From Aequorivita lipolytica (GTDB taxonomy: Bacteria > Bacteroidota > Bacteroidia > Flavobacteriales > Flavobacteriaceae): DNA of 64,000 nucleotides. Numbering within the stretch: the first letter of the stretch is position 1; each line of letters begins with the position of its first letter. The stretch covers positions 186,001 to 250,000 of the forward strand of contig NZ_VORU01000003.1 in the NCBI RefSeq assembly GCF_007997135.1, read 5' to 3'. The notes beneath the pieces were generated by a model. That model did not search any database and was not told the DNA's origin. It saw only the letters and a program-made list of their open reading frames with translations. The position numbers and the translations under genes were made by a program. Below, in pieces: positions 390-19,225 of this stretch.

Positions 390-728
390 ATGGCTGCCAA
401 CAACTACTATGACCCTGCTGACCTAAGAAAATTTGGAAATATTACCGAATGGAGCAAAGAACTCGGCGATAAATTTTTTGATTACTACGGAAAAGTTTTC
501 GAGGAAGGTGCGCTCACGGCACGAGAAAAAGCTTTGATAGCCTTAGCCGTGGCTCATACCGAACAGTGCCCATACTGCATTGATGCTTATACAAAAGACA
601 CTTTACAAAGAGGCGTAACCAAAGAAGAAATGATGGAAGCCATCCACGTGGGCGCGGCCATAAAAAGCGGCGCAACCTTGGTTCACGGAGTGATGATGAT
701 GAATAAAGTGAACAAATTAGAAATGTAG
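390..728 (+). CDS. Arsenosugar-associated AhpD-like peroxidase (carboxymuconolactone decarboxylase family)
   Basis: A 112-residue protein of the carboxymuconolactone decarboxylase/AhpD superfamily. Residues 43-65 contain TAREKALIALAVAHTEQCPYC, with the redox pair C60 and C63 in a CxxC motif, followed by an all-helical tail ending LVHGVMMMNKVNKLEM. This matches the subfamily (TIGR04169 type) that is found beside the radical SAM protein ArsS, annotated as an arsenosugar biosynthesis-associated peroxidase-like protein. Its actual reaction is not established; a thiol-based redox step on an arsenic intermediate is an inference. It is the first gene of the run, 60 bp before arsS. Its stop codon TAG lies inside a 28-bp palindromic repeat (725-752). 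Confidence 0.9.
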   Translation: MAANNYYDPADLRKFGNITEWSKELGDKFFDYYGKVFEEGALTAREKALIALAVAHTEQCPYCIDAYTKDTLQRGVTKEEMMEAIHVGAAIKSGATLVHGVMMMNKVNKLEM

Positions 729-752
729 GCGCGCGATTAATCGTGAGCCTGC
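725..752. repeat. GC-rich intergenic palindromic repeat, copy 1
   Basis: GTAGGCGCGCGATTAATCGT followed by GAGCCTGC is a copy of the 28-bp palindrome (perfect at 44782-44809) with mismatches in its right half. The peroxidase stop codon TAG (726-728) is inside it. Confidence 0.8.
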
Positions 753-788
753 GAATAATTTATTAGAATACCATTCGATAAAAATTCT

Positions 789-1865
789 ATGCTAAAAGAA
801 AAAAAGAAAAAACAGCAATCCCTTCATAAACGCCACAGCGAACTCGCAGTGGCAAACAAACAACTCGAAAAACTTTCCAACGGCATCTTCGCCAATGGAG
901 AGCTTCCCCTTTTTTCTGAAAAAATAAGGGAAACAAACCAATTTCCGCTCCGTCCAAATAAATTGGAGATCCTACAAATAAATGTTGGCTATATGTGCAA
1001 CCAAGTTTGCGAACACTGCCACGTAGATGCCGGCCCTGATCGAAAGGAAATTATGACACGCGAAACGATGCAGCAGTGTTTGGATGTAATAAAAAACACA
1101 GGTGCGCACACGTTGGATCTAACCGGCGGCGCCCCAGAAATGAACCCCGATTTTCGATGGTTTGTTGATGAAGCGAGCAAAGCCGGAATCAAGGATTTTA
1201 TTGTTCGAAGTAATCTTACCATCATTCGTGCAAATAAAAAATATTACGATTTACCGGAATTTTTCAAAAACCACAATGTGCACGTCGTTAGCAGCATGCC
1301 GCACTGGACGCGAGGAAAAACCGATAAACAAAGAGGCGAAGGCGTTTTTGACCTTTCAATAAAAGCGTTGCAGGAATTGAATGCTGTAGGCTACGGAATG
1401 CCTGAAAGTGATCTCCGATTGGATTTGGTTTACAATCCAAGTGGTGCCTATTTACCCGGCGATCAAGCAAGTATGGAAAAGGAATTTAAACACGCTTTAC
1501 TTGAAGATTTTGGCATTCATTTTCACAATCTTTTCGCCATTACAAACCTTCCCGTTTCCAGATTTTTGGATTATTTGATTGCTTCGGAAAATTATGAGGA
1601 CTATATGTATTCATTGGTTGAAGCCTACAATCCCGCCGCAGTTAAAAACGTGATGTGTCGAAATACAATTTCAATAAGTTGGGATGGGTTTCTATACGAT
1701 TGCGATTTTAACCAAATGCTGGAATTGAAGGTTGCGAGCAAAATCCAACACATTTCAGAATACAACGAAGATATTTTAAACGATAGAAAAATTATAATCT
1801 CCCAACATTGCTACGGTTGTACCGCCGGTGCCGGAAGCAGTTGCCAAGGAGCAGTTGCAGATTAG
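789..1865 (+). CDS. arsS: Arsenosugar biosynthesis radical SAM protein ArsS
   Basis: A 358-residue radical SAM enzyme. The [4Fe-4S]-binding cysteines are C70, C74 and C77 in CNQVCEHCHVDAGPD, and LTGGAPEMNPDF follows as the SAM-binding GGxPE-type motif. The C-terminal half is the DUF3641 domain and ends in HCYGCTAGAGSSCQGAVAD (C341, C344, C352), the hallmark of the TIGR04167/ArsS family, some members of which carry selenocysteine; here all positions are cysteine. In characterised ArsS, SAM cleavage delivers a 5-prime-deoxyadenosyl group to a dimethylarsenic acceptor, forming the precursor nucleoside of arsenosugars. Neighbours (AhpD-like protein, DUF2064, TIGR04283, nucleoside phosphorylase) fit this pathway. 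The stop codon sits in a GATTAGG tandem repeat. Confidence 0.93.
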   Translation: MLKEKKKKQQSLHKRHSELAVANKQLEKLSNGIFANGELPLFSEKIRETNQFPLRPNKLEILQINVGYMCNQVCEHCHVDAGPDRKEIMTRETMQQCLDVIKNTGAHTLDLTGGAPEMNPDFRWFVDEASKAGIKDFIVRSNLTIIRANKKYYDLPEFFKNHNVHVVSSMPHWTRGKTDKQRGEGVFDLSIKALQELNAVGYGMPESDLRLDLVYNPSGAYLPGDQASMEKEFKHALLEDFGIHFHNLFAITNLPVSRFLDYLIASENYEDYMYSLVEAYNPAAVKNVMCRNTISISWDGFLYDCDFNQMLELKVASKIQHISEYNEDILNDRKIIISQHCYGCTAGAGSSCQGAVAD

Positions 1866-1884
1866 GGATTAGGGATTAGGGATT
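1860..1884. repeat. Tandem repeat of GATTAGG, about 3.6 copies
   Basis: Three perfect heptamers and a GATT remnant at 1860-1884. The arsS stop codon TAG (1863-1865) lies in the first unit, and the last aspartate codon GAT belongs to it too. Confidence 0.9.
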
Positions 1885-1941
1885 CGACGAAACCAAATTA
1901 TTTTGTTATCGCAACAAACCTTAAATATCGAATTTTAAACC

Positions 1942-2628
1942 TTGAATACTAAAAAAACCGCCATACTAATATTTGCGAATTCGGCCCAACAAGAGGCCGT
2001 AAACAAACCGTTCCCAAAATCGTCGGCGCTTTTTGATGAGCTCAATAAACAGACATTACAAAAAGTAAAACGCAGCGGCCTGCCCTATTTTCTTTTTTCT
2101 GAAGATGAGCAGCTAGGTACAACTTTTGGCGAAAGATATACCAATGCAATCCAGTTTGTCTATAATCAAGGTTTCGAAAATGTTATTACCATTGGGAATG
2201 ATACGCCCCAACTAAAGACTTCACAATTAATTGAAACCGCCAAAAAACTGGAATACAGCCCCATCATTTTAGGGCCTTCTAAAGATGGGGGATATTATAT
2301 GATGGGATTGAACAGATCCCAATTCAACGTTGAAACCTTTTTAAAACTACCATGGCAAACTTCACAGTTGACGAAGCACATTTCGCGCTTGCTCGCCGCT
2401 CAGAGAATTAAGATCGTTTTTCTGAAAATGTTTGCCGATATTGATTCCATTACTGACGTTGAATCAGTTTTAAATGGTTTCAGAAATATTGGCGTTAATC
2501 TTAAAAAGATTCTTCTTTCCCTATTTTCTTCAGAAAAAAATACAATTTCATTTTCGCCTTTCTTCTTTCAAAATACTTCGAAAGAAATAAAACTCAACAA
2601 AGGCTCTCCCCTATTGCTTCATATTTAA
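1942..2628 (+). CDS. DUF2064 / TIGR04282-like nucleotidyl- or glycosyltransferase, first copy
   Basis: A 228-residue protein of the DUF2064 family (GT-A-like fold, related to TIGR04282 proteins of arsenosugar loci). Visible signatures are VITIGNDTPQL (the GxDxP element near residue 92) and LGPSKDGGYYMMGL near residues 112-125, the conserved substrate-loop motif. The N-terminal ILIFANSAQQE lacks the usual KTRL motif seen in the second copy (10249-10941), so its donor-binding site may differ. The start is TTG at 1942; no nearby ATG would keep the N-terminal strand. The C-terminal 40 residues are serine/phenylalanine rich and not family-like. Reaction unknown; it may add or activate a moiety on the arsenoribose. 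Confidence 0.75.
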   Translation: MNTKKTAILIFANSAQQEAVNKPFPKSSALFDELNKQTLQKVKRSGLPYFLFSEDEQLGTTFGERYTNAIQFVYNQGFENVITIGNDTPQLKTSQLIETAKKLEYSPIILGPSKDGGYYMMGLNRSQFNVETFLKLPWQTSQLTKHISRLLAAQRIKIVFLKMFADIDSITDVESVLNGFRNIGVNLKKILLSLFSSEKNTISFSPFFFQNTSKEIKLNKGSPLLLHI

Positions 2629-2641
2629 TTTTTAAAAAACC

Positions 2642-2676
2642 TGTCAGTCATTGCGAAGAATGAAACAATCCACAGG
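2642..2676. repeat. Dispersed repeat GTCATTGCGAAGAATGAAAC type
   Basis: TGTCAGTCATTGCGAAGAAT followed by GAAACAATCCACA matches the widely seen bacterial CATTGCGAGGAATGAAGCAATC-type element. It lies in the 82-bp spacer before the SusC gene. Confidence 0.6.
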
Positions 2677-2710
2677 TCTGTGAAAATCCTTTTCTAACTA
2701 ATCACAATTT

Positions 2711-5700
2711 ATGAAGCACATATACTTATGCGTATTGCTGTTTTTTTCTATTTACAGCTACGCCCAAACCACCGTTACCGGCACGGTGACCTCGGCGGTT
2801 GATGATATCACTATTCCGTTTGTAACAATACAGGCGAGTAATGGCAAAGCAACAACCACCGATGAAAACGGGAATTATTCCATTTCAGTTTCCGAAAATG
2901 ACAAACTTAAATTCTCCGCAATTGGTTACGCCGCACAAACCGTTTCAGTTGAAAATAGAACTACAATAAACGTTGTTTTGGCTGAAACTACTACCGATCT
3001 TGATGAGGTGGTGGTAACGGCACTCGGTGTAAAACGCGAAACAAAAGAGTTAGGTTACACCGTTCAAGCGCTGAAGTCGGAAGAAATTTCTGAAGTAAAA
3101 TCGGTTAACTTTCTCGACAATCTTGCAGGGAAGTTGGCTGGCGTTACCATAACCCAAGGTGCTACCGGTGTGGGTTCTTCTTCAAAAATCACCATTCGGG
3201 GCGAAGCTTCCTTTTCAAACAACAATCCACTTTTTGTGATTGATGGCACGCCTATAAACAACAACACTGTTTTTAACGTAACGAACGAAGCCGCAGCCGG
3301 ATTTCAGGAAATAGATTTTGGGAACGGCGCGATGGAAGTAAACCCAGACGATATTGAATCTGTCACCGTTCTAAAAGGCCCAACGGCCGCAGCTCTTTAC
3401 GGAACACGTGCCGCAAACGGCGTGATTGTAATAGAGACCAAAGACGGCAGCAAAGCCAAGGGAATGGGCATCAGCGTCAACACATCCCTTTTTGTGGATA
3501 CTGCGTTCAAATTACCAAAATTTCAAAATGAATACGGGCAGGGAAATTCCGGACAGTTTGAATACGTTGACGGGCTGGGTGGCGGAACAAATGACCTTAT
3601 CAGTTATTCCTGGGGACCGAGGTTGGATGTGGGAAATTTAATTCCGCAATATGACAGTCCAGTTTATTTGCCCGATGGAACGGTGGTTCGAGGTGGTGAT
3701 ACTTCGCTATACGACGGACTACCCATTACTGCAACCCCCTTTGTTTCACATCCCGATAATTTGAAGGATTTCTACAAAACGGGGATTACTACCATTAACA
3801 ATGTATCTGTTTCGGATAACTTCGGAAACGGAAATTATCGCCTTTCCTTTACAGATTTAAGAAGCGAATCCATCATTCCCGGTGTAAATCTTGACCGGCA
3901 AACGGTTGCGGCAAACCTAACATTTCGACCAACCGCTAAAACCGAAATTACAACTTCCATGAGTTACGTAAATTCAAACAGCGACAATCGCCCGTCCAAT
4001 GGCTATGGTAGTGAAAACGTGAATTACGCTTTGATAGCCTGGGGTCCGCGCTCGTTGAATATTGAAAATATGAAACAGTATTGGCAGCCCGGTTTGGAAA
4101 ATGTGCAGCATTATTCCTTCAATTATACCTATTTCGACAACCCATATTTCACTTTACTTGAAAACAGAAACTCATTTAATCGCGATCGCGTTTTTGGGAA
4201 TGTTTCAATCAGGCAGAATCTTTCACAACACTTGAGTGTTTCCTTGCGAACAGGAATGGATTATTCCTCAGAAAATCGCGAATTCCGAAGAGCTTACAGC
4301 AGTAATCGCTTTAAAAATGGTGCTTATGCTGAGGACGATGTTTTTTACAGGGAAGTAAACACAGACTTTTTGATCAACTATAACAAGCTCTTCGGAAATT
4401 TCTCTTTTGATATTTCTGCTGGAGGCAATAGATTGGACCAAACAGCTTCAACCAAACAATCGCAAGCTTTGAATTTGGCACAACCTGGAATTTTCAGTTT
4501 GAACAACGCCGCGTCGCCAATCGAGGTTTTTCAGTTTGAATCACAGAAAAGGATTAATTCATTTTACGGAATCGCAAAATTCGGTTTTAAGGATATTGCA
4601 TATTTGGATATAACCGCCCGTAATGATTGGTCCAGCGCTTTGGCTACACCTTTTTCTGTGGATGGCACTTCGTTCTTTTATCCTTCGGCTTCGTTGAGTT
4701 TTATACTTTCAAATGCGGCGAAACTTCCGAGGGTTATTTCCTTCGCAAAATTGCGCGGAAGCATCGCCCAAGTTGGGAATGATACCAATCCGTACCAAAC
4801 TTCGGGAGCATTTGTTTCGCAAACCCCATATTTGGGTCAGCCAACTTTCAGCGACCAAAACTTTATACCGAATTCCAATTTGAAACCCGAGCAGGTTACT
4901 TCGTATGAAGTAGGCGCGGACATTCGTTTTTTTAGAGATAGATTGAATTTCGATTTTACCTATTACAATGCTTTGACCAAAGATCAAATTATTTCGCTGC
5001 CGATTGCTATTTCTTCTGGTTACAACCAACAAGTTGTAAACGGCGGAAAAGTTCGCTCTCAGGGAATTGAATTGGTTGCAGATATAATTCCCGTAAAAAC
5101 TGGAAATTTCAGTTGGAATAGCACCTTCAACTTCAGTAAAAACAAAGCGGTGGTGGAAGAGCTTCCGCAGACAGATGGCAGGTTAACGCTGGCTTACAGT
5201 AGAATTTATGACAGTGCCAACCAAACCGTTTGGTTTCAAGTGGAAGAAGGTGGCGAAATTGGCGATATCTACGGAACAGGTTATTTGAAAAATGAAAATG
5301 GCGATTTCATCCTTACTTCCGAAGGGAGATATATTGCTGATAATACGCTGAAAAAAATAGGAAATTACAATCCTGATTTTATTTTGGGCTGGAACAATAC
5401 TTTCACCTATAAAAACTGGAATCTTGGTTTTTTGTTCGATTGGCGTCAAGGTGGAGAGTTGGTTTCACGAACCCGTGCTTTGGCAACTGTTGGCGGTCAA
5501 CTCGCAGAAACTGCTGGTGACAGAGGCGATATAATTCCGCAAGGTGTTGTAAATATTGGAACAGAAGAAAATCCAAATTACGTTCCAAATACCACAGCAG
5601 TTTCCGCCGAAAGTTATTATCGTCAGTTTTACGATAGAAACCACGAAGAAAACAATACATACGACGCTTCCTATTTAAAGCTTCGTCAGTTTTCAATCGG

Positions 5701-5917
5701 TTACACCTTCAAAACCAGAAAGGGTTTTGCGGGTCTTGACGAAGGTGCGGCGATCGATTTTTCCATAATTGGAAGAAACATATTTGCCATTAGCGACATT
5801 CCCCATTTTGATCCCGAACAACTCGCCGTGCAGGGAACTGGTTTTGTAAGCGGTGTTGAGGATATGAGTTATGCTTCAACCAGAAGTATTGGATTTAAAG
5901 CGGGATTAACATTTTAG
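2711..5917 (+). CDS. SusC/RagA-type TonB-dependent outer-membrane receptor
   Basis: A 1068-residue outer-membrane transporter. Residues 1-19 form a signal peptide ending YSYAQ. A CarboxypepD_reg-like domain follows (TTVTGTVTSAVDDITIPFV to about residue 95), then the DEVVVTALG TonB box region, a plug domain (residues about 110-245 with ITIRGEASFSNNNPLFVIDG and GPTAAALYGTRAANGVIVIE), and a long beta-barrel ending in SIGFKAGLTF. Such proteins form a lidded pore with the SusD partner encoded 89 bp downstream (6007-7449). Its substrate cannot be read from sequence; the place between arsS and pathway enzymes suggests an organoarsenical, a sugar phosphate or another precursor. Length and architecture are normal. 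Confidence 0.95.
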   Translation: MKHIYLCVLLFFSIYSYAQTTVTGTVTSAVDDITIPFVTIQASNGKATTTDENGNYSISVSENDKLKFSAIGYAAQTVSVENRTTINVVLAETTTDLDEVVVTALGVKRETKELGYTVQALKSEEISEVKSVNFLDNLAGKLAGVTITQGATGVGSSSKITIRGEASFSNNNPLFVIDGTPINNNTVFNVTNEAAAGFQEIDFGNGAMEVNPDDIESVTVLKGPTAAALYGTRAANGVIVIETKDGSKAKGMGISVNTSLFVDTAFKLPKFQNEYGQGNSGQFEYVDGLGGGTNDLISYSWGPRLDVGNLIPQYDSPVYLPDGTVVRGGDTSLYDGLPITATPFVSHPDNLKDFYKTGITTINNVSVSDNFGNGNYRLSFTDLRSESIIPGVNLDRQTVAANLTFRPTAKTEITTSMSYVNSNSDNRPSNGYGSENVNYALIAWGPRSLNIENMKQYWQPGLENVQHYSFNYTYFDNPYFTLLENRNSFNRDRVFGNVSIRQNLSQHLSVSLRTGMDYSSENREFRRAYSSNRFKNGAYAEDDVFYREVNTDFLINYNKLFGNFSFDISAGGNRLDQTASTKQSQALNLAQPGIFSLNNAASPIEVFQFESQKRINSFYGIAKFGFKDIAYLDITARNDWSSALATPFSVDGTSFFYPSASLSFILSNAAKLPRVISFAKLRGSIAQVGNDTNPYQTSGAFVSQTPYLGQPTFSDQNFIPNSNLKPEQVTSYEVGADIRFFRDRLNFDFTYYNALTKDQIISLPIAISSGYNQQVVNGGKVRSQGIELVADIIPVKTGNFSWNSTFNFSKNKAVVEELPQTDGRLTLAYSRIYDSANQTVWFQVEEGGEIGDIYGTGYLKNENGDFILTSEGRYIADNTLKKIGNYNPDFILGWNNTFTYKNWNLGFLFDWRQGGELVSRTRALATVGGQLAETAGDRGDIIPQGVVNIGTEENPNYVPNTTAVSAESYYRQFYDRNHEENNTYDASYLKLRQFSIGYTFKTRKGFAGLDEGAAIDFSIIGRNIFAISDIPHFDPEQLAVQGTGFVSGVEDMSYASTRSIGFKAGLTF

Positions 5918-5918
5918 A

Positions 5919-5985
5919 CCCACCCCTAACCCCTCCCGAAGGGAGGGGAACAAAAGCCCCTCCTTTGGAGGGGTTGGGGAGGACT
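5919..5985. repeat. Hairpin repeat between SusC and SusD genes
   Basis: CCCACCCCTAACCCCTCCCG and the following AAGCCCCTCCTTTGGAGGGG (then TTGGGGAGG) form nested G/C-rich stems: CCCTCCC/GGGAGGG and CCCCTCC/GGAGGGG. A near copy lies at 7450-7519. Confidence 0.85.
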
Positions 5986-6006
5986 CTTAACATAAAACAA
6001 TAAATT

Positions 6007-7449
6007 ATGAAAAACAAATTATACATTTTCAGCTTGGTTTGCCTGCTTTTTGCAAGCGGATGTACCAAAGATTTTGAGGAAATAAATACGAACCCAAACG
6101 CACCGAATAGCGTGCAGCCAAGTCTTTTGCTTCGACAGGTAATTTATGATTTTGGCGAACAGATGAGCTACGAAGGTTTCGTGGCCGGCGATTTACTTTC
6201 GCAGCACAGAACAGCGATTGACTTTAACCTTTTTGACCGACACGCGTTGAAATCGCCGCAATTGGGTGGAAATCCTTGGCCAGTTTTTTACGTAAACCTT
6301 CGCGATAACGAGATTTTATTAAACCAAGCGCAAACGGTGCAAACCTACGCAGTTTACGAAGGGCCTGCCCTAATTATGAAAGCTTATATGGCAGCAGGAT
6401 TGACCGATCTTTTTGGCGATGTTCCTTACATTGAAGCTTTCAATGGTGTAAATGGAACTGTCACGCCGAAATACGATAAACAGGAAGACATTTACTTGGC
6501 CGATGGCGGAATTTTGGATAATCTCAACAAAGGCATTGCCGCAATCAACAATTACAACGATGTACTTCCGCTGGAAGGCGATATACTTTTCAACGGAAAT
6601 TTGGACGGTTGGGTAAAGTTTGCAAACGCTTTGAAAATAAAAGCATTGTTGAGAATTTCAGGAAAAATTGATGTTTCGGCACAACTGCAAGCCATTTACA
6701 GTTCTGGAAATTACATTCAAAGTAATTCTGAAAATGCAATTTTCAATTTTACAAATACAGATCCGAACCGATTCCGTTTGGCAAAACTCCGCGTGGGCGA
6801 TTTTAACAACTTTGTGCTTTCGGAAACTATGGAAGATATCATGCTCGGCTTTAACGACGATAGAATTGATGCGTTTTTTCGTCCTTTTCAAAATTCAACA
6901 AATGGCGAATTTAATGGCCTGATAAACGGAATTGACGCCTCAAACACTTCCATAGAATTGTCGGATTATTCGCTTGCGGGTACCATTTTCCGCGAAGATA
7001 CTTCAACGCTCGACGCCAACTTTCTGACCGCCTGGGAAACCTATCTCAATTTGGCCGAAGCCGCGCAAAAAGGTTTGATTACTGCAAATGCAAAAGATTT
7101 ATACGAAACTGGCGTAACGCTGGCATTTGAATATTGGAATGCGCCGCTGCCTCCAGATTATTTAACCGGCCCCGCCGCTTTTGATGCGTCCGGCACAACT
7201 CCCATTCAGCAAATTGTTACCCAAAAGTGGATTGCAAACATCATCAACGGTTACGAAGGTTGGGTGGAATATCGACGTACAGGTTTCCCAATGCTAAAAC
7301 CTGTTGCAGCAAGTTTGAACGACGGTTTAATCCCGGTAAGAATGCCGTATCCCGCAGAAGAACAGGCATTGAATGCAGATAATTATAATGAAGCGGCATC
7401 AAACACAGATGGCAATAGCATCAATTTCCCAGTTTGGTGGGATGAATAG
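6007..7449 (+). CDS. SusD/RagB-family outer-membrane lipoprotein
   Basis: A 480-residue SusD-like surface lipoprotein. The lipobox FASGC puts the lipidated cysteine at residue 19, followed by TKDFEEINTNPNAPNSVQPS, the characteristic start of the SusD-like_2 subfamily. Helical TPR-like segments follow, for example ALIMKAYMAAGLTDLFGDVPYIEAF. It pairs with the SusC receptor immediately upstream and would bind substrate at the cell surface. The gene is bracketed by two near-identical hairpin-forming repeats (5919-5985 and 7450-7519). The ligand is unknown; genomic context links it to arsenosugar biosynthesis rather than to a polysaccharide utilisation locus, because no polysaccharide hydrolase lies nearby on the same strand. 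Confidence 0.93.
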   Translation: MKNKLYIFSLVCLLFASGCTKDFEEINTNPNAPNSVQPSLLLRQVIYDFGEQMSYEGFVAGDLLSQHRTAIDFNLFDRHALKSPQLGGNPWPVFYVNLRDNEILLNQAQTVQTYAVYEGPALIMKAYMAAGLTDLFGDVPYIEAFNGVNGTVTPKYDKQEDIYLADGGILDNLNKGIAAINNYNDVLPLEGDILFNGNLDGWVKFANALKIKALLRISGKIDVSAQLQAIYSSGNYIQSNSENAIFNFTNTDPNRFRLAKLRVGDFNNFVLSETMEDIMLGFNDDRIDAFFRPFQNSTNGEFNGLINGIDASNTSIELSDYSLAGTIFREDTSTLDANFLTAWETYLNLAEAAQKGLITANAKDLYETGVTLAFEYWNAPLPPDYLTGPAAFDASGTTPIQQIVTQKWIANIINGYEGWVEYRRTGFPMLKPVAASLNDGLIPVRMPYPAEEQALNADNYNEAASNTDGNSINFPVWWDE

Positions 7450-7519
7450 TCCCACCCCTAGCCCCTCCCAAAGGGAAGGGAATATAAAAGCCCCTCCTTT
7501 GGAGGGGTTGGGGAGGACT
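7450..7519. repeat. Hairpin repeat after the SusD gene
   Basis: A near copy of the element at 5919-5985, with AAAAGCCCCTCCTTTGGAGG followed by GGTTGGGGAGG. It flanks susD on the other side; similar intergenic G/C-rich repeats are known in flavobacteria. Confidence 0.85.
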
Positions 7520-7533
7520 TTTAAACAAAATTT

Positions 7534-8868
7534 ATGAACGTAGAAATTTGGCAATGGGCATTGATAATCGTATCGAGTTTGATACTGTTTTTCCTTTCCC
7601 CATTAGCTAAAACCACTGATCAATTTTTTAAGGCCACGCACCGCAAAAAAGCGCCCAATGCGTTTATGCTCACGGGAAGCCTCATTATTTCGTGGATTTT
7701 TGCGAAAAGCATTACTAACGCCGCAAATCTCGGCCTCAATTTCGGGATTGTGGGCGGCGTTGCTTATGCCGGATATTATTTGTCCTTTGCCGTGGCGGGG
7801 ATTATTATTTATTTCCTGAGAAAAGATGGCGGGTTTACAAGCATCCACCACTTTTTAACGAGCCGTTTCGGAAAAGGCGCAATGCGGATTTTTTCTGTTT
7901 TAATCGCAATCCGTTTGTTCAACGAAGTTTGGAGCAACACGATGGTAATTGGCACCTATTTTGGCGAACAGGGAAGCTCTGCCTCTTATTGGTCTATTAT
8001 GGTTTTTACGGCATTGACTTTGGCTTATGCAATGAAAGGTGGCTTGAGCAGTTCCATTTTTACCGATGTAATTCAAATGGGTCTATTTGCCATTTTGCTT
8101 TGTATTATTCTTTGGAAAATATTTTCTGTGGAAGATTTCACAGTTGCAGAAGTTGCTAGTTCAGGAACTTGGAGTTTTGGATTGGGACTCAATCTATTTT
8201 TCGCAGCAATCATTCAATCATTTAGTTACCCTTTTCACGACCCAGTTTTGACGGATCGTGCTTTTTTAAGTTCGCCTAAAACTACACTGAAAAGTTTTTT
8301 ATGGGCTACTTTATTAGGCGGTTTGTGTATCGTACTTTTTAGTGTAATCGGTATTTATGCAAAAATGCAAGGAATGGAAGGACAGGCGGCGGTTGAAGTT
8401 GGCAAAGCATTTGGCGTGATTATACTTTTGGTTATAAATTTCATTATGATCACCTCCGCTGCTTCCACTTTGGACTCAACTTTTTCTTCATTTTCAAAAT
8501 TGCTTGCGGTAGATCTAAAGTTGGGAAAAAACTTAAGTTTCGGACGATTATCAATGGCAATTATTGCAATATTGGGAACCATTCCAGTATTTTTGAATGC
8601 CGAAATCCTTTCCGCTACAACTATATCTGGAACGATGGTAATTGGACTTACCCCCGTATTTTTATTTTGGAAAATGAAAGCTCCTAAAGTGAGTTTTTAC
8701 GTAAGTGTACTGATGGGAATTGTTTTCGGCTTTATTTTGGTTTTTGAAATTTTTCCAAAGCAACTCATTTTCACCGAAGGCAAATACGCCGATTTGCTTT
8801 GGGTAAACATTTGGGGAATTGGCAGTTGTATACTTTTATATTTAATACCAACTTGGATAAAAAAATAG
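7534..8868 (+). CDS. Sodium:solute symporter (SSS family)
   Basis: A 444-residue inner-membrane protein with about twelve hydrophobic segments. It carries SSS-type features: FFKATHRKKAPNAFMLTGSL after the first helix, MKGGLSSSIFTDVIQMG near residues 168-184 (the conserved GGLxxxxxTDxxQ signature), and a serine-rich SAASTLDSTFSSFSKLLAVD near residues 308-327 resembling the sodium-site helix. It would move a solute across the inner membrane with sodium. Position directly after SusC/SusD suggests the same substrate passes both membranes. The substrate is not readable from sequence. The next gene starts 26 bp after its stop, consistent with an operon. Confidence 0.88.
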   Translation: MNVEIWQWALIIVSSLILFFLSPLAKTTDQFFKATHRKKAPNAFMLTGSLIISWIFAKSITNAANLGLNFGIVGGVAYAGYYLSFAVAGIIIYFLRKDGGFTSIHHFLTSRFGKGAMRIFSVLIAIRLFNEVWSNTMVIGTYFGEQGSSASYWSIMVFTALTLAYAMKGGLSSSIFTDVIQMGLFAILLCIILWKIFSVEDFTVAEVASSGTWSFGLGLNLFFAAIIQSFSYPFHDPVLTDRAFLSSPKTTLKSFLWATLLGGLCIVLFSVIGIYAKMQGMEGQAAVEVGKAFGVIILLVINFIMITSAASTLDSTFSSFSKLLAVDLKLGKNLSFGRLSMAIIAILGTIPVFLNAEILSATTISGTMVIGLTPVFLFWKMKAPKVSFYVSVLMGIVFGFILVFEIFPKQLIFTEGKYADLLWVNIWGIGSCILLYLIPTWIKK

Positions 8869-8894
8869 AACATATAAAAAATCTGAAAGGAAAG

Positions 8895-9680
8895 ATGCTT
8901 CTTTTTGGGGGCGTGTACAGCAATCTGCAAGCCTTGGAAAAGCTGAAAAGCATTGCCGAAGAGGAAAATATTTCCCCGGAAAATTGCATTTGCACGGGCG
9001 ATATTGTGGGCTATTGCGCACAGCCCGAAGAAACGGTTCAGCTTTTTAAACTTTGGGGTGTCAAAAGCATTGTTGGAAATGTGGAAATTCAGCTCCGTGA
9101 AGGCGCTGAGGATTGCGGTTGCGATTTTAGAGCTGGCGGAAGGTGCGACGGATTTTCGCAAATGTGGTATCCATTCGCGCAAAGCAAACTTTCAAAAAGT
9201 TCGTTGGATTTTATGAAAACGTTGCCCGATCATCTTCAATTTGAATATGCTGGAAAGAAGGTTACAGTTGTGCACGGCTCCTATTTTAATGTTTCGGAAT
9301 TTATTTTTAAATCGACTCCGTGGGAAATTAAAGCTGAAAATTTTAAAGCTACCAAAAGTGACGTAATTATAGCGGGCCACTGCGGCTTGCCATTTCATCA
9401 CATTAAAGAGAATAAAACGTGGTTAAACCCAGGAGTTATAGGGATGCCAGCAAACGACGGCACCCCGCAGGTCTGGTACATGATTTTGAATGATTTAAAA
9501 AACAAACTGAGTTTTAAACATCACAGGATGGATTACAACTTCGCGTTGACGAGCAAACTGATGCAAAACGAATTGTTGCCACAGGAATATGCGAGAACGA
9601 TAATCACCGGAATTTGGGACAATACCGAAATTCTTCCGCCCGTAGAAAGCGGTTGGCAGGGTTTTGGCGTTGTATTGTAA
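8895..9680 (+). CDS. Metallophosphoesterase family protein
   Basis: A 261-residue calcineurin-like phosphoesterase. Motifs in order are LLFGGVYSNLQAL (first metal motif, with an unusual GGVYSN in place of the common DxHxN), CTGDIVGYCAQPEE, IVGNVEIQL (in the place of GNHD), VTVVHGSYFNV, and VIIAGHCGLPFHH (in the place of GHTH). Two cysteines in EDCGCDFRAGGRCDGF are also notable. I chose ATG 8895, preceded by GGAAAG, over an in-frame ATG at 8799 that would overlap the symporter by 70 bases and add a non-family N-terminus. A phosphatase would suit removal of ribose-1-phosphate or a sugar phosphate in the pathway, but this is inference. The metal ligand changes hint at a specialised subfamily. 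Confidence 0.82.
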   Translation: MLLFGGVYSNLQALEKLKSIAEEENISPENCICTGDIVGYCAQPEETVQLFKLWGVKSIVGNVEIQLREGAEDCGCDFRAGGRCDGFSQMWYPFAQSKLSKSSLDFMKTLPDHLQFEYAGKKVTVVHGSYFNVSEFIFKSTPWEIKAENFKATKSDVIIAGHCGLPFHHIKENKTWLNPGVIGMPANDGTPQVWYMILNDLKNKLSFKHHRMDYNFALTSKLMQNELLPQEYARTIITGIWDNTEILPPVESGWQGFGVVL

Positions 9681-9688
9681 ATAATATT

Positions 9689-10189
9689 ATGAAACAAAAA
9701 ACAATCTTCATTCTTCTATTCTTAATCGCAGCAAACAGCTCCGCCCAAAAAGACTTGGCTGATTTGTTGCAAACCTACAACACACATAGCATTCCCTATA
9801 TTTCTGTCGAAGAATTGCGCATGTTGCAGATGAATGATTCTGTAGTAATTTTGGACGCACGCGAGCCGAACGAATTCGTCGTAAGCCATATTGCTTCGGC
9901 CAAAAACGTTGGCTTCAACGATTTTTCTTCCGAAGAAAAAGAGCTTAAAAAATTACAGAAAAACGCACCGATAATTATTTATTGCTCTTTGGGAATCCGT
10001 TCCGAACAAATTGGCGAAAAGCTAAAAAAAGCTGGATTTACTAACATTAAAAATTTATACGGTGGTATATTTGAATGGAAAAACAAGAATTATCCCGTGA
10101 TTGATTCCACAGGAATTGAAACCGAAAATGTACATACATTTTCGAAAATGTGGAGCAGGTATTTGCACGCAGGGAATCCTGTTTATTAA
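9689..10189 (+). CDS. Exported rhodanese-like protein
   Basis: A 166-residue protein with a signal peptide (residues 1-20, IFILLFLIAANSSAQ) and one rhodanese domain. The catalytic loop is IIIYCSLGIRSEQI with cysteine 99; DAREPNEFVVSHIASAKNVG is the typical rhodanese substructure before it. Rhodaneses move sulfane sulfur or, in the arsenate reductase relatives, handle oxyanions. Here the export signal implies a periplasmic role. I chose ATG 9689, 8 bp after the metallophosphoesterase stop, because it begins the signal peptide; a longer frame from 9614 overlaps that gene. Tight spacing implies translational coupling. A role in thiolation or reduction of arsenic compounds is possible but unproven. 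Confidence 0.85.
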   Translation: MKQKTIFILLFLIAANSSAQKDLADLLQTYNTHSIPYISVEELRMLQMNDSVVILDAREPNEFVVSHIASAKNVGFNDFSSEEKELKKLQKNAPIIIYCSLGIRSEQIGEKLKKAGFTNIKNLYGGIFEWKNKNYPVIDSTGIETENVHTFSKMWSRYLHAGNPVY

Positions 10190-10202
10190 AACCAATGATG
10201 GT

Positions 10203-10230
10203 GTACGCGCGCGATTAATCGCGCGCCTAC
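10203..10230. repeat. GC-rich intergenic palindromic repeat, copy 2
   Basis: GTACGCGCGCGATTAATCGC followed by GCGCCTAC differs from the perfect palindrome at 44782 by only one base. It lies between the rhodanese and DUF2064 genes. Confidence 0.85.
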
Positions 10231-10248
10231 CGAATACCGATTATAAAA

Positions 10249-10941
10249 ATGGCATTATTAACTTCAAAAGACACTACCGGCGACAAAGAAATGGCTTTCG
10301 ATTTTCATTTTCCCACTTCAAAAAAAGCATTGATTATTTTTACGCGAAATCCTGAATTGGGAAAGGTAAAAACCCGTTTGGCAAAATCGGTTGGGGATGA
10401 AAGTGCATTGAAAATCTATAAATTTCTGCTTAAGCATACTGTTGAAATTACAGAAAACTTAAACGTAGATAAATATGTTTTTTATTCAGAAAACATTCAT
10501 CGCGACGATATTTGGAATCCAGATATTTTCAGAAAAAAAATACAAACTGGTCTAGATTTGGGGGAACGGATGAAAAACGCTTTCTCCGAAGTTTTAGAAA
10601 TGGGCTATGAAAAAGTGATGATTGTAGGTAGCGATATTTATGAACTGAAGCAAAAAGATATAGAAAAAGCCTTCGGAATTTTGGATACAGGCCAATTTGT
10701 AATTGGCCCAGCAACCGACGGCGGCTATTATCTTTTGGGAATGAAAGAATTGAATTCAGAAATTTTCAAAAATAAAAATTGGGGCACTAGCACGGTTTTG
10801 GAAGCTACTTTGAAAGATTTAAAAAACCAAAAATACATACTTCTGGAAGAACGAAATGACATAGATTATTTTGAAGACCTCAAAAATATTGATGCTTTTC
10901 AGCAATTTCTGCCGCCTTATTTAGACAATAACTTTTTATGA
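10249..10941 (+). CDS. TIGR04282 family arsenosugar biosynthesis glycosyltransferase (DUF2064), second copy
   Basis: A 230-residue DUF2064 protein with the full family signature: ALIIFTRNPELGKVKTRLAK near residues 28-47, GLDLGERMKNAF, VMIVGSDIYEL, and FVIGPATDGGYYLLGMKELN. The fold is GT-A-like, related to nucleotidyltransferases. NCBI models place TIGR04282 proteins in arsenosugar loci. Start 10249 is used; ATG 10291 is an alternative that still keeps the whole domain, and neither has a clear ribosome binding site. It lies 19 bp after a perfect 28-bp palindrome-type repeat (10203-10230). Compared with the first copy (1942-2628), this one retains the KTRL motif and is the likelier active enzyme. 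Confidence 0.87.
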   Translation: MALLTSKDTTGDKEMAFDFHFPTSKKALIIFTRNPELGKVKTRLAKSVGDESALKIYKFLLKHTVEITENLNVDKYVFYSENIHRDDIWNPDIFRKKIQTGLDLGERMKNAFSEVLEMGYEKVMIVGSDIYELKQKDIEKAFGILDTGQFVIGPATDGGYYLLGMKELNSEIFKNKNWGTSTVLEATLKDLKNQKYILLEERNDIDYFEDLKNIDAFQQFLPPYLDNNFL

Positions 10942-10943
10942 AT

Positions 10944-11037
10944 AGGACATAAGAGTTAGAGCTAAATATTATTAATCATAAAAGTCAATTTTAAATTATT
11001 TCAGTCTTATGTCTTAAGTCCTTTCGTCCTACGTCTG
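10944..11037. repeat. Inverted intergenic repeat (AGGACATAAG family)
   Basis: AGGACATAAG (10944-10953) and CTTATGTCTTAAGTCCTTTC followed by GTCCTACGTC (11006-11035) face each other. It is a copy of the element at 54383-54473, in the 132-bp gap before the phosphorylase gene. Confidence 0.55.
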
Positions 11038-11073
11038 GTTATAGTAGAAGATTATCATAAAAATGAACAAAAT

Positions 11074-11892
11074 ATGAGCATTACAAAATATATTGAACAA
11101 GCCGCAGACTATTTAAAACAGCGCGGTTTTGAAAATCCAGAAGTTGGAATTATTCTGGGTACCGGTCTCGGAAAACTAATTGAAAACTTGGAAGTTGAAG
11201 CCGAGATTAGCTACAACCATATTCCAAATTTCCCTACAGCTACAGTAGAATTCCACAAGGGAAAACTTATTTACGGCTCTTTGGAAGGAAAAAAGGTAGT
11301 TGTAATGCAAGGCCGTTTTCACGTTTATGAAGGCTATTCGTTAAGCGATGTTACCTTTCCCGTTCGCGTTATGCACTTACTGGGAATAAAGCATTTGTTG
11401 GTGAGCAATGCATCTGGAGCAATCAACCTCAATTTCAAAAAAGGAGAAATAATGCTTATTGACGACCATATCAATCTTCAAGGTGATTCGCCATTAGCTT
11501 TCCGCGGTGTTGAAAAAATGGGTGAGCGTTTTGTAGATATGAGTGCGCCCTATAACGCCGAAATGAACAAAAAAATGGAGCAGATTGCTTCCGCAAATAA
11601 TATAAAATTACACAAAGGTGTTTACGCAAGTGTGGTTGGCCCACAATTGGAAACCCGCGCTGAATACCGTTATTTAAAAATTATTGGCGCAGATGCAGTC
11701 GGGATGAGCACGGTGCCAGAAGTTATCGTTGCTAACCACTTAGGAATACCCGTTTCAGCCGTTTCGGTTTTGACTGATGAATGTGATCCAGACAATTTGG
11801 AACCTGTGAATATTGAAGAAATAATAGCAATGGCGGCAAAGGCAGAACCAGATATGATTACTCTATTTACCGAGTTAATTAAGCAATTGTAA
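11074..11892 (+). CDS. Purine nucleoside phosphorylase (PNP, trimeric type)
   Basis: A 272-residue phosphorylase of the trimeric PNP/MTAP family. Motifs: VGIILGTGLGKLIENL (phosphate-binding glycine loop, residues 24-39), VVMQGRFHVYEGY (ribose-binding histidine), LLVSNASGAINLNFKKGEI, VYASVVGPQLETRAEYRYL, DAVGMSTVPEVIVANHLG, and the base-binding SVLTDECDPDNL (with the N/D position occupied by aspartate). It splits purine nucleosides with phosphate into base and ribose-1-phosphate. In this setting the likely substrate is the dimethylarsinoyl-adenosine nucleoside produced through ArsS, releasing adenine. It could also be the general cellular salvage enzyme that happens to be here. It is 132 bp after the upstream gene, across an inverted repeat (10944-11037). 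Confidence 0.92.
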   Translation: MSITKYIEQAADYLKQRGFENPEVGIILGTGLGKLIENLEVEAEISYNHIPNFPTATVEFHKGKLIYGSLEGKKVVVMQGRFHVYEGYSLSDVTFPVRVMHLLGIKHLLVSNASGAINLNFKKGEIMLIDDHINLQGDSPLAFRGVEKMGERFVDMSAPYNAEMNKKMEQIASANNIKLHKGVYASVVGPQLETRAEYRYLKIIGADAVGMSTVPEVIVANHLGIPVSAVSVLTDECDPDNLEPVNIEEIIAMAAKAEPDMITLFTELIKQL

Positions 11893-11922
11893 ACTTTAGC
11901 AATTTATTGCGACCAAAAAACC

Positions 11923-12807
11923 TTGGAAAAATACTTAGAAATATTCAAAAACTCCTACCATGGCTACTTTAATTATCTGTGGACAGAAATGACTCGTTTC
12001 CATTGGGAAAATTATTTCTATGGATTAATACTTGTTTCTTTGGTAGTCTGGGGTTTAGAGCTTTTATTTCCGTGGCGAAAGAAGCAAAATGTTTTCAGAA
12101 AAGATTTTTGGCTAGATACATTTTATATGTTCTTCAACTTTTTTCTTTTGAATTTGATCGTGCTTATTTTCCTGTCAAATGCAACGGCAGAGTTGTTTAA
12201 TGATATTTTAGGCTTTGCTGGATTAAAGCTCTCAGCTTTTCAGCTTTTAGATTTGGATGCACTACCTTTTGGTTTCGGACTTCTAATTTTCTTTTTGATA
12301 ACAGATTTTGTACAATGGAATACGCATCGGTTACTTCACTACTCTCCCTTTCTTTGGAATTTTCACAAATTACACCATTCCGTAAAAGAGATGGGCTTTG
12401 CTGCACACCTGCGTTATCACTGGATGGAACCTGTGGTTTATAAATCTCTGCTGTACATTCCACTAGCGATTATTGGTGGTTTTAATGTAGAATCAGTAGC
12501 GATTGTCCATTTTTCCGCACTTGCTATTGGACATTTAAATCATGCAAACTTGGGATGGGATTACGGTTTTTTAAAATATATTTTTAACAACCCAAAAATG
12601 CACATTTGGCACCACGCTAAAGTTTTACCAAAAAATGCCCAACACGGTGTTAATTTTGGAATTAGTTTAAGCCTTTGGGACTACCTTTTCAGAACCGATC
12701 ATATTCCGCACGATGGCAGGGACGTTGAGCTGGGCTTTAATGGTGATGAAAAATTTCCTGTAAAGTTCACCTCACAAATGCTTTATCCCGTTAAAACCAA
12801 AAACTGA
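11923..12807 (+). CDS. Sterol desaturase / fatty acid hydroxylase family membrane protein
   Basis: A 294-residue integral membrane di-iron oxygenase. The histidine clusters are HRLLH (near residues 134-138), HKLHH (147-151), and later HLNHAN and HIWHH, which is the full eight-histidine set of the FA_hydroxylase superfamily. Hydrophobic segments surround them. Homologues hydroxylate or desaturate fatty acids, sterols or alkylglycerols. It starts at TTG 11923, 30 bp after the phosphorylase stop; the next ATG would lose the first helix. Within an arsenosugar locus it suggests that a lipid-linked product (arsenolipid) is made or modified, though a general membrane lipid role is equally compatible. 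Confidence 0.88.
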   Translation: MEKYLEIFKNSYHGYFNYLWTEMTRFHWENYFYGLILVSLVVWGLELLFPWRKKQNVFRKDFWLDTFYMFFNFFLLNLIVLIFLSNATAELFNDILGFAGLKLSAFQLLDLDALPFGFGLLIFFLITDFVQWNTHRLLHYSPFLWNFHKLHHSVKEMGFAAHLRYHWMEPVVYKSLLYIPLAIIGGFNVESVAIVHFSALAIGHLNHANLGWDYGFLKYIFNNPKMHIWHHAKVLPKNAQHGVNFGISLSLWDYLFRTDHIPHDGRDVELGFNGDEKFPVKFTSQMLYPVKTKN

Positions 12808-12847
12808 TATTGCTCGTATATAAAACCGAACAAAAATCTCGAAAATA

Positions 12848-13651
12848 ATGAAAACATTAATCAATTTCACAACATTAATAATGGCTGCACTTATAATGCA
12901 GAGTTGTAATTTACTTTCCGCTGCAGGGGTTAGCAGCCAAGGACAACCTACTAAAGAAGTGAAATCAGATCTTACTTCAACAACTGCAAATTCTGCCATA
13001 AATGTGGACCACTCACAATGGGACAAATTGCTGAAAAAACACGTGAATAATGAAGGTCTGGTCGATTATAAAGGATTCAAAAACGACAAAGCAAAACTGG
13101 ACGATTATCTAAAGATGCTTTCTGAAAAAAATCCTACTGACGATTGGAGCGTACAGGAATTGTTAGCCTATTACATAAACCTTTACAATGCTGCAACGGT
13201 AGAATTAATCGTGGAAAATTATCCCCTTAAAAGTATAAAAGATATTGATGGCGCCTGGACCAAAGGCCGCGTCTCCGTGGGAAGCAAAGAATTGTCTTTA
13301 GGCGGAATTGAAAACGGAATTCTTCGGAAAATGAACGAATCTAGAATCCACTTCGCTATAAACTGTGCTTCTATTTCCTGCCCAAAGCTTTTGAATGAAG
13401 CTTTTACAGCGGGTAAAATAAACGAGCAATTAGATCGCGTTACAAAAGAATTTGTCAATAGTGATAAGAACGATATTTCTGCCAGCAATCCTAAACTGTC
13501 CTCGGTTTTTGATTGGTACCAGAAAGATTTTACGGTAAATGGAAAAAAAGACGTTATCGGTTACATTAACGAATACGCTAAGACCAAGATAAATGCTGGT
13601 GCAAGCTTGGCCTATAAAAATTATAATTGGAACTTGAACGAACAGAAATAG
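12848..13651 (+). CDS. DUF547 domain lipoprotein
   Basis: A 267-residue predicted lipoprotein (lipobox IMQSC, cysteine 20), then a low-complexity linker and a DUF547 domain from about residue 60. Family motifs are visible: GLVDYKGFKNDKAKLDDYL, LLAYYINLYNAATVELIVEN, and HFAINCASISCPKLLNEAF with two cysteines. DUF547 has no established biochemical function. It follows the sterol desaturase gene by 40 bp and is followed by an 11-bp-stem hairpin at 13673-13705 that probably terminates transcription, so it may close a transcription unit. Its repeated presence near arsenosugar genes in other flavobacteria is a recollection rather than something I can check here. Confidence 0.9.
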   Translation: MKTLINFTTLIMAALIMQSCNLLSAAGVSSQGQPTKEVKSDLTSTTANSAINVDHSQWDKLLKKHVNNEGLVDYKGFKNDKAKLDDYLKMLSEKNPTDDWSVQELLAYYINLYNAATVELIVENYPLKSIKDIDGAWTKGRVSVGSKELSLGGIENGILRKMNESRIHFAINCASISCPKLLNEAFTAGKINEQLDRVTKEFVNSDKNDISASNPKLSSVFDWYQKDFTVNGKKDVIGYINEYAKTKINAGASLAYKNYNWNLNEQK

Positions 13652-13672
13652 TTTTCTGTTTTGAAAATAATC

Positions 13673-13705
13673 AAACCTCACAGACTATTAAATCCTGTGA
13701 GGTTT
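13673..13705 (+). terminator. Hairpin terminator after the DUF547 gene
   Basis: An 11-bp perfect stem, AAACCTCACAG at 13673-13683 paired with CTGTGAGGTTT at 13695-13705, closes an 11-base loop, and the 3-prime arm runs into a short T-rich stretch. It lies between the DUF547 and TIGR04283 genes, whose spacing is 74 bp. A rho-independent terminator or an attenuating hairpin is likely. Similar hairpins are common between flavobacterial genes, so it may also be a dispersed repeat. Confidence 0.65.
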
Positions 13706-13725
13706 AACTTTTGTAAATTTACCGC

Positions 13726-14499
13726 ATGCTATCCATCATCATCCCGGTTTTGAATGAAGCCGAAACTATAAAAAAATTATTGACCTTTCTTTCAGAAAAC
13801 ATTTCTGCAAAAAATGAAATAGAAATTATTACCGTGGATGGCGGAAGCAATGACGGAACGCAGCAAATAATTAAAGAGTTTATCGAGTCCATTAACCCTT
13901 CGGCTACGCTCAGGATGACATTGGAAAATTCAGAAAAAGGTCGCGCCAAGCAAATGAATAAAGGTGCTACTGAAGCATCTGGCGAAATTCTATACTTTCT
14001 ACACGCAGATTCTTTTCCTCCCAAAAATTTCGATAAATATATTATTTCCGAAATTGAAAAAGGAAATCCTGCTGGTTGCTTCCGAATGAAATTTGACAGC
14101 AACCATTGGTGGCTGCAACTTGCGGGATGGTTTACTAAATTTAGCTGGCGTGCCTGCCGCGGTGGCGACCAAAGTCAATTTATCACCAAAGATCTCTTCG
14201 AAGAAATTGGAGGTTTTGATGAAAAATATATTATTTACGAAGATAATATTTTAATCAACGAGCTTTACGAACGGAACAAATTTGTAGTAATACAGCAATG
14301 GATTACAACTTCTGCAAGGCTTTATAAGCAAGAAGGCGTTTGGAAGTTGCAGTACCATTTTTGGGCAATTTATGTAAAACGTTGGCTGGGAGCTGATGCG
14401 GAGCAACTCTACAATTATTATTTGAAAAACATAAAACTAGCCAACTCCACAAAATTTTCAGAACAAAAAATTTCTCAACAAGTAGCTGAAAAGCAATAA
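13726..14499 (+). CDS. TIGR04283 family arsenosugar biosynthesis glycosyltransferase
   Basis: A 257-residue family 2 glycosyltransferase. It begins LSIIIPVLNEAETIKKLL, has the nucleotide-binding VDGGSNDGT (residues 37-45), NSEKGRAKQMNKGA (68-81) and the catalytic-metal region YFLHADSFPPK, with the DQSQFI and acceptor-side sequence GGFDEKYIIYEDN further on. NCBI models assign this subfamily to arsenosugar loci; it presumably transfers a sugar or glycerol unit to, or of, the arsenoribose. Residues about 57-66 (NPSATLRMTL) are encoded by a dispersed genomic repeat (13896-13920) inserted in frame in a variable loop. The gene starts after a terminator, so it may have its own promoter. Confidence 0.9.
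   Translation: MLSIIIPVLNEAETIKKLLTFLSENISAKNEIEIITVDGGSNDGTQQIIKEFIESINPSATLRMTLENSEKGRAKQMNKGATEASGEILYFLHADSFPPKNFDKYIISEIEKGNPAGCFRMKFDSNHWWLQLAGWFTKFSWRACRGGDQSQFITKDLFEEIGGFDEKYIIYEDNILINELYERNKFVVIQQWITTSARLYKQEGVWKLQYHFWAIYVKRWLGADAEQLYNYYLKNIKLANSTKFSEQKISQQVAEKQ
13896..13920 (+). repeat. Dispersed repeat inserted in frame in the TIGR04283 gene
   Basis: The 25 bases here contain CCTTCGGCTACGCTCAGGAT followed by GACA, which is the well-known bacterial dispersed repeat whose reverse strand reads TGTCATCCTGAGCGTAGCCG and is normally intergenic. Here it lies wholly inside a glycosyltransferase reading frame and adds about eight codons without a frameshift, between the nucleotide-binding motif and the KGRAKQMN motif. 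Related copies at 24690 and 26631 in the window are intergenic. Confidence 0.8.
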
Positions 14500-14583
14500 C
14501 GCCACGAAATTTCATTTTTCAAATTCGCTTCTTTCCAAAATTTTTAGGATATTGTAAGAGAAACCATTGTAAAAGACAAAACC

Positions 14584-15018
14584 ATGAACATTTTTGAAGC
14601 CATTAGAAAAGACCACGACAAACAACGCGAACTATGCCGTTTGGCAACCTCCACTTCGGGAGATTCAAAGGGCAGAAAAGAAATGTGGGAAAAATTGAAA
14701 CACGAGTTGCAAATCCACGCAGATGCAGAGGAACGCACTTTCTATTCGCCATTGATCCATAACGACATGATGCAAGAGCACGCCCGCCACGGAATTGCCG
14801 AACATCACGAAATGGACGAATTAATTGAAAAAGTGAGCGAGACAGATATGGACTCGCCAGCTTGGCTTGTGTATGCAAAACAGTTGTGCGAAAAGGTTGA
14901 ACATCATTTAGACGAAGAAGAACACACCTTTTTTCAACTGGCGGGTAAGGTATTTTCTGAAACGCAAAAAACAGCCATTGCCAAGGATTACTTGGAAGAA
15001 ATGAAAAAGCACAGATAA
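14584..15018 (+). CDS. Hemerythrin HHE domain protein
   Basis: A 144-residue four-helix protein with hemerythrin-type ligands: H11 in RKDHDKQ, H45 and E49/E50 in QIHADAEER, H74/H75 in IAEHHEMDE, and H107/H108 with E112 and H114 in KVEHHLDEEEHTFF. This layout fits an HHE cation-binding di-iron domain used in oxygen, NO or redox sensing and in iron-sulfur repair. It is 84 bp after the TIGR04283 gene on the same strand and ends only 12 bp from the convergent gene at 15031. It may be an oxygen or NO protective factor for the oxygen-sensitive radical SAM step, which is inference only. Confidence 0.9.
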   Translation: MNIFEAIRKDHDKQRELCRLATSTSGDSKGRKEMWEKLKHELQIHADAEERTFYSPLIHNDMMQEHARHGIAEHHEMDELIEKVSETDMDSPAWLVYAKQLCEKVEHHLDEEEHTFFQLAGKVFSETQKTAIAKDYLEEMKKHR

Positions 15019-16086: not shown

Positions 16087-16217
16087 TTTTGAAATAAATT
16101 ATGGTTGAATTTAGCCCTTTATTTAGAATTTATAGAAATATTAATAGCCGTTTTGAATCTGCCGAAGTTGTAATTGCGTAAATTTATAAACGACTGAAAA
16201 TTCAATCATCAAAAAAT

Positions 16218-17519: not shown

Positions 17520-17522
17520 TCT

Positions 17523-19109: not shown

Positions 19110-19225
19110 TTAGCATTCAGTCGCAGTTGGCAGCATCAAAAATGTTAGGTTTGGAAATTGTTTCCGTCCAACGGTTTGTCATATATTTTTCTGAAATTCG
19201 CAGTCCATAAATCCTCAAGCTCTTA

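Follow-up and report, generated by a model that had tools for sequence, protein, structure and literature searches.

A transport cassette in the arsenosugar loci of Flavobacteriaceae may import methylated arsenic for ArsS

The window analyzed here is a stretch of 64,000 nucleotides from Aequorivita lipolytica (contig NZ_VORU01000003.1, positions 186,001 to 250,000). At 390-15018 it contains a run of 14 genes that combines the arsenosugar radical SAM enzyme ArsS with a five-gene cassette of predicted uptake function. All 14 genes are on the plus strand, and the gaps between them measure 2-132 bases for the starts used. The gene 3' of the run is on the opposite strand. The run begins with an AhpD-like arsenosugar-associated protein that has a CPYC motif (390..728; TIGR04169, 193 bits, cut-off 120), followed by ArsS (789..1865; TIGR04167, 439 bits, cut-off 300). 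The first cassette gene encodes GT2064a (1942..2628), a divergent DUF2064 protein that lacks the N-terminal K-T-R-L loop. Next are a SusC-type TonB-dependent transporter (2711..5917; TIGR04056, 591 bits, cut-off 368), a SusD-type protein (6007..7449; PF12771, E 7e-88), a sodium/solute symporter of predicted SSS/SLC5 fold, hereafter SSS (7534..8868), and a protein of metallophosphoesterase (MPE) fold in which motif residues are replaced and cysteines conserved (8853..9680; PF12850). The TTG at 8853 is an alternative MPE start, which creates a 16-base overlap with SSS; the other candidate start is the ATG at 8895. The rest of the run encodes a rhodanese-domain protein common in such loci (9683..10189; NF045521, 198 bits, cut-off 145), the canonical TIGR04282 protein GT2064b (10249..10941), a purine nucleoside phosphorylase (PNP; 11074..11892; NF006054, 352 bits, cut-off 218), a fatty-acid-hydroxylase-type protein (11923..12807; FA_hydroxylase PF04116), a DUF547 protein (12848..13651; PF04784), a TIGR04283 arsenosugar glycosyltransferase (13726..14499; 230 bits, cut-off 182) and a hemerythrin-domain protein (14584..15018; PF01814).

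The original prediction had named all of these genes except the last one. All are present on the plus strand, and the curated and Pfam models agree with the assignments in most cases. The gene it called di-iron desaturase-like encodes the PF04116 protein instead. Of its two DUF2064 proteins, the second fits TIGR04282 well (214 bits, cut-off 134), whereas the first is divergent and remains below the cut-off (94 bits). Its sodium symporter is supported by the predicted fold and not by sequence models (TIGR00813, 32 bits, cut-off 184).

A 17-base palindrome-like element is located in both the SusC-SusD gap (5957-5973) and the SusD-SSS gap (7491-7507). It was observed in 0 of 100 shuffles, and the whole genome contains six exact copies. 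Promoter-like sites (40, shuffle mean 36.4) and terminator-like sites (23, shuffle mean 17.2, sd 4.7) showed no clear excess.

Comparison with other genomes indicated which genes are common in ArsS loci. Of 299 genomes sampled in the family, 234 encode an ArsS that exceeds the TIGR04167 cut-off. We collected neighborhoods of ArsS, up to 20 kb long, from 99 other genomes that were chosen by hand from the top of the match list, in most cases one for each genus; some of these stretches end early at contig ends. The AhpD-like gene is present in 98 of them (median identity 83%), GT2064b in 78 and PNP in 75. DUF547 (67), rhodanese (62), TIGR04283 (59) and the hydroxylase (40) also recur. The cassette genes are much rarer, with SusC found in seven loci and SusD, SSS and MPE in nine each. 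Of the nine SusD matches, that in L033 has only 28% identity, and the other cassette genes are missing there. The two relatives of the same genus that the sample includes carry no cassette (L007 and L008) and no SSS (G024 and G218). On these counts, the ArsS locus combines a widespread core with a less frequent cassette, and the added cassette is the five genes GT2064a-SusC-SusD-SSS-MPE. We therefore excluded PNP, TIGR04283, rhodanese, the hydroxylase and DUF547 from the new module, because they recur in cassette-free loci; the original prediction had listed the last three among the genes interleaved with the arsenosugar genes. Genes for a GH113 protein, an FAD oxidoreductase, an Fe-S membrane protein and two glycosyltransferases are found downstream at 15031-21408. 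Each is located near ArsS in 32-48 of the 99 genomes, and the conserved neighborhood therefore extends beyond 390-15018.

The cassette is tightly linked to ArsS. An SSS ortholog is present in 48 of the 299 family genomes. All of these matches have E values of 4e-172 or better, and none falls between that value and the limit of 1e-40. ArsS is over its cut-off in 47 of the 48. In the stretches fetched around SSS, MPE is beside it in 47, and arsS (46), SusD (44), SusC (43) and GT2064a (42) are nearby; one stretch (L092) stops before SusC would appear. In one genome (G074) arsS is not near SSS and is located elsewhere. We also examined the best 80 of 284 SSS relatives in a collection of named genomes, whose organisms are partly the same as those in the family sample. 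MPE is present in 80 of 80, and arsS in 71 of the 71 full-length loci. In a sample of 345 genomes from the phylum, SSS is found in eight and a close MPE in the same eight. Four of the eight belong to other families; all four have ArsS, located within ~3 kb of SSS in two of them (on the other strand in one).

The position of the cassette varies. It may be directly 3' of arsS, either as in the window or with PNP upstream and arsM downstream. Alternatively it is directly 5' of ahpD-arsS, or 3' of arsS-arsM. An ArsS tree of 136 genomes requires at least 18 changes in SSS state, a number that gene-tree errors would inflate. Together with the different gene orders, this makes shared descent alone an unlikely cause of the linkage. 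These distributions show that cassette and ArsS locus belong together. A chance neighborhood, which the original prediction had held open, is refuted by the proximity of arsS to SSS in 46 of 48 family genomes and in all 71 full-length loci among the best 80 named relatives.

SSS is also related to the occurrence of ArsM, the arsenic-methylating enzyme. The arsenosugar ArsM (NF038099) scores over its cut-off in 185 of the 299 family genomes, all with ArsS. It is not universal, since 49 of the 234 ArsS genomes are without it, including that of the window, in which a genome-wide search with NF038099 found no match. In relatives arsM is often located 3' of PNP; in the window this position is occupied by the hydroxylase gene, and arsM is missing. 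Among loci with PNP, a member of the arsenosugar ArsM cluster, whose representative scores 571 bits to NF038099, is found in 60 of 67 without SSS and in 4 of 9 with SSS. The arsenosugar ArsM is missing from 27 of 47 genomes that have both ArsS and SSS, compared to 22 of 187 that have ArsS and no SSS (Fisher p 2.8e-10). A generic ArsM (NF008823) is present in 13 of these 22 and in 2 of the 27. Of the latter two matches, one contains an internal stop and the second belongs to the window's own genome. Neither ArsM is over its cut-off in 25 of the 47 and in 9 of the 187 (p 1e-13). When one genome was drawn per genus (165 genera), p for the arsenosugar ArsM had a median of 6e-6 and did not exceed 0.0010 in 1000 draws. 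Relatedness among genomes inflates these p-values. Seven genera contain both a species with SSS and no arsenosugar ArsM and a species with the reverse combination of presence, SSS missing and ArsM present. No genus shows the opposite pattern (sign test 0.016). Counting generic ArsM as well removes the genus of the window and leaves six. The arsenosugar ArsM is over its cut-off in none of the four SSS genomes from other families.

A gene resembling PiT or sulfate permeases adjoins arsM in six cassette-free loci (L021, L029, L045, L063, L067 and L102). It is beside arsM in none of the cassette loci in the 100-locus set.

The predicted structure of the symporter (mean pLDDT 86) indicates that it is of the SSS/SLC5 fold type. 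Its top matches in the PDB are SGLT, SiaT, CHT1 and NIS. Compared to SSS/SLC5 symporters of known structure (SGLT2, SiaT, CHT1 and NIS), the fold is similar, with query TM-scores of 0.65-0.77, but the identity is only 11-17%. A sequence search of the PDB was empty, and there was no Pfam match at E 0.001. An S-A-x-S-T-x-D-S stretch is invariant. S311 and T312 are the same in all of 35 sequences and may correspond to the SSS sodium site. SusCD and SSS-fold proteins are known as importers. The cassette is therefore expected to mediate uptake, and an export path is not favored.

MPE is confidently predicted to adopt the metallophosphoesterase fold (mean pLDDT 91). Of the structural matches listed, the Ap4A hydrolase/phosphodiesterase SapH (3qfm_A) has the best TM-score, 0.79. 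Like MPEs of the YfcE/Ap4A-hydrolase type, it keeps the GD aspartate, the GN asparagine and two histidines, as seen in comparison with 3rqz. Unlike them, it has G-x-Y in place of D-x-H in motif I, GNVE in place of GNHD and GHCG in place of GHTH. The ligand set of two-metal MPEs (D-x-H, GD, GNH(D/E), H and GHxH) is thus incomplete in the window protein. With our assumed assignment of motif residues to individual metal sites, one site would be lost and one kept. The replacements make an ordinary phosphodiesterase role less probable. Another difference is in the cysteines. Five are present in all 47 cassette MPEs, and the cysteines of a CGC-x-F and a CD motif are invariant. Three of the five also occur in three relatives from other families and in one from Roseomonas; the fourth other-family MPE (G466) was left out of this alignment. 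In 8 of the 47, the MPE frame has no stop codon at its end and reads across a short linker into the AhpD-like protein. The methionine of AhpD is kept in these continuations, so that a separate start is possible. The CPYC motif of AhpD and the cysteines of MPE suggest thiol chemistry on arsenic.

In the described pathway a methylated arsenical passes from ArsM to ArsS, and this intermediate is dimethylated. A report on Synechocystis assigns the first steps of the arsenosugar pathway to ArsM and ArsS (PMC8552651), and another describes adenosylation of arsenic by ArsS-type enzymes (PMC12159101). We propose that the run is an arsenosugar (or arsenosugar-lipid) locus with a built-in cassette that imports an already methylated arsenical for ArsS, which would make ArsM dispensable. 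In our judgment the chances that this proposal is right are about even. SusCD would carry the arsenical, dimethylarsinate or a conjugate, across the outer membrane, and SSS would bring it into the cytoplasm together with sodium. The cysteine-bearing MPE and the CPYC-containing AhpD-like protein may then either release it or reduce it, giving a thiol-bound dimethylarsenical in the trivalent state. ArsS would add the 5'-deoxyadenosyl group, PNP would remove the base, and the TIGR04282 and TIGR04283 proteins would complete the sugar. ArsM would be dispensable because the arsenic arrives methylated, and cassette genomes could often be free of ArsM and still keep ArsS.

That the transporter is nearly always found with ArsS, often where ArsM is missing, fits import of a methylated intermediate or conjugate. 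We infer that the cargo is an arsenic compound, and the best support for this is the inverse relation with ArsM. The higher frequency of the uptake genes where the methylating enzyme is missing suggests scavenging of ready-made methylated arsenic. Of the dedicated arsenic uptake or export path in the original prediction, the transport module tied to ArsS has held up, the arsenic cargo is an interpretation of gene distribution, and export has lost favor. A wider proposal is an ArsM-independent arsenosugar route in Bacteroidota. Dimethylated arsenic from algae or other microbes would be scavenged through a dedicated path of SusCD and the sodium symporter, processed by a unit of AhpD and a new, cysteine-type, single-metal MPE, and fed directly to ArsS. 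Methylation and sugar building would then take place in different organisms. We regard this route as tentative, with somewhat less than an even chance.

A number of observations weigh against import of methylated arsenic as the role of the cassette. The arsenosugar ArsM is kept in 20 of the 47 genomes with ArsS and SSS, and nine ArsS genomes without SSS have neither ArsM. Species in five genera (g3, g64, g139, g142 and g144) differ in SSS while both have ArsM, and in six genera (g28, g56, g95, g99, g117 and g118) SSS-free species are found with and without ArsM. The ArsS tree provided nine supported independent pairs, with a mean of 5.4 as expected, 0.1 against and 3.5 equal, and the median p was 0.06. 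The reverse test with any ArsM (eight pairs) resulted in a median p of 0.03. The direction of the relation is consistent, and its tree-based significance is borderline. Two of the four other-family genomes have ArsS and SSS on different contigs, and in one of the four a generic ArsM exceeds its cut-off. SSS and MPE occur without SusCD in seven loci, three in family genomes and four among the 80 named loci, which suggests that their substrate is small. SSS-MPE without SusCD is the arrangement in Aequorivita capsosiphonis, the closest of the named relatives (SSS identity 89%). In addition, one genome (G207) has an SSS relative (60% identity) with no MPE beside it and no ArsS in the genome. The gene (L159:8492-9868) is seemingly located among genes of phenylacetate-degradation type, as judged by reading the open reading frames by eye; this context also counts against an arsenic cargo, and this branch of transporters may carry small monovalent acids. 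Finally, the genome from which the window comes encodes a generic ArsM (NF008823, 373 bits) at contig position 96104, ~90 kb upstream. It is located in a separate arsR-arsM-arsC-like-acr3 run (L265:2227-5181), in which the arsC-like protein is below its cut-offs. The strain could therefore methylate arsenic itself, and its cassette may supplement methylation rather than replace it.

Other explanations of the cassette were considered. It could import intact arsenosugars of algae, such as the glycerol-phosphate form, in order to salvage them, with MPE opening them as a phosphodiesterase and ArsS rebuilding the released dimethylarsenical. SusCD, SSS and MPE resemble a small utilization set, the near folds of MPE include SapH, and several named hosts have species names that point to seaweed, although these are names only, with no control. 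However, arsenosugar import would make ArsS dispensable, and the replaced metal-binding residues of MPE argue against ordinary phosphodiester hydrolysis. The presence of SSS implies ArsS (47 of 48) and not the arsenosugar ArsM (20 of 48), which argues against a cassette that serves only to import finished arsenosugars, and we consider this explanation unlikely. A similarly low probability is given to import of an arsenic-free partner of the pathway, such as a nucleoside, polyol, lipid head group or cofactor precursor, to be joined after ArsS. GT2064a, present with SusCD in 42 of the 48 stretches, could act on an imported acceptor, and 20 of 47 cassette genomes retain the arsenosugar ArsM, but the more frequent absence of ArsM with SSS is not explained. 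A general nutrient importer fixed by synteny, with the ArsM relation due to relatedness, gains from the inflated counts and the borderline pair test, but is very improbable given the linkage in several gene orders, the 18 inferred state changes, the MPE-AhpD continuation and the presence beside ArsS in two other families.

The arsenosugar locus itself was known; what appears to be new is the cassette in ArsS loci and its inverse relation with ArsM. Among the open-licence papers listed in literature searches, none deals by title or abstract with transport genes in ArsS loci, which is a weak negative. The literature found offers no explanation of how arsenosugars benefit these bacteria, or of the source of the arsenic. 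If import of methylated arsenic is common among them, methylators and scavengers would share the formation of arsenosugars. Counts of ArsM would then underestimate how many organisms make arsenosugars, and the cassette would offer a candidate organic-arsenic transporter. The cassette is a small and well-bounded gene set, and the MPE-AhpD continuation points to a putative step before ArsS.

A cluster on a Roseomonas haemaphysalidis plasmid (L264:1711-9810) resembles the cassette in part. In it, a distant, cysteine-bearing MPE relative (38% identity) follows genes of a phosphonate-type ABC importer, and argC-like, TIGR04282, DUF547 and two radical SAM genes are present. The related MPE, TIGR04282, DUF547 and radical SAM genes are shared with the window. 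In contrast, the ABC importer takes the place of SusCD-SSS, and neither radical SAM protein reaches the ArsS cut-off (best score 61 bits, cut-off 300). This is a single case on the side of the import reading; when plasmids were searched with the MPE from Roseomonas (E limit 1e-25), it matched only itself. Similar to SusC/SusD nutrient uptake loci of Bacteroidota, the cassette contains a TonB-dependent SusC and a SusD in the same orientation as an inner-membrane transporter and an enzyme-like protein. Unlike them, it has no glycoside hydrolase or regulator, and its partner is the biosynthetic ArsS locus. The run shares ArsS, AhpD-like, TIGR04282 and TIGR04283 proteins over curated cut-offs, as well as PNP and rhodanese, with the known arsenosugar locus. 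It differs in that the arsenosugar ArsM is missing from both the locus and the genome, and that SusCD-SSS-MPE and a second, divergent DUF2064 protein are located 3' of arsS.

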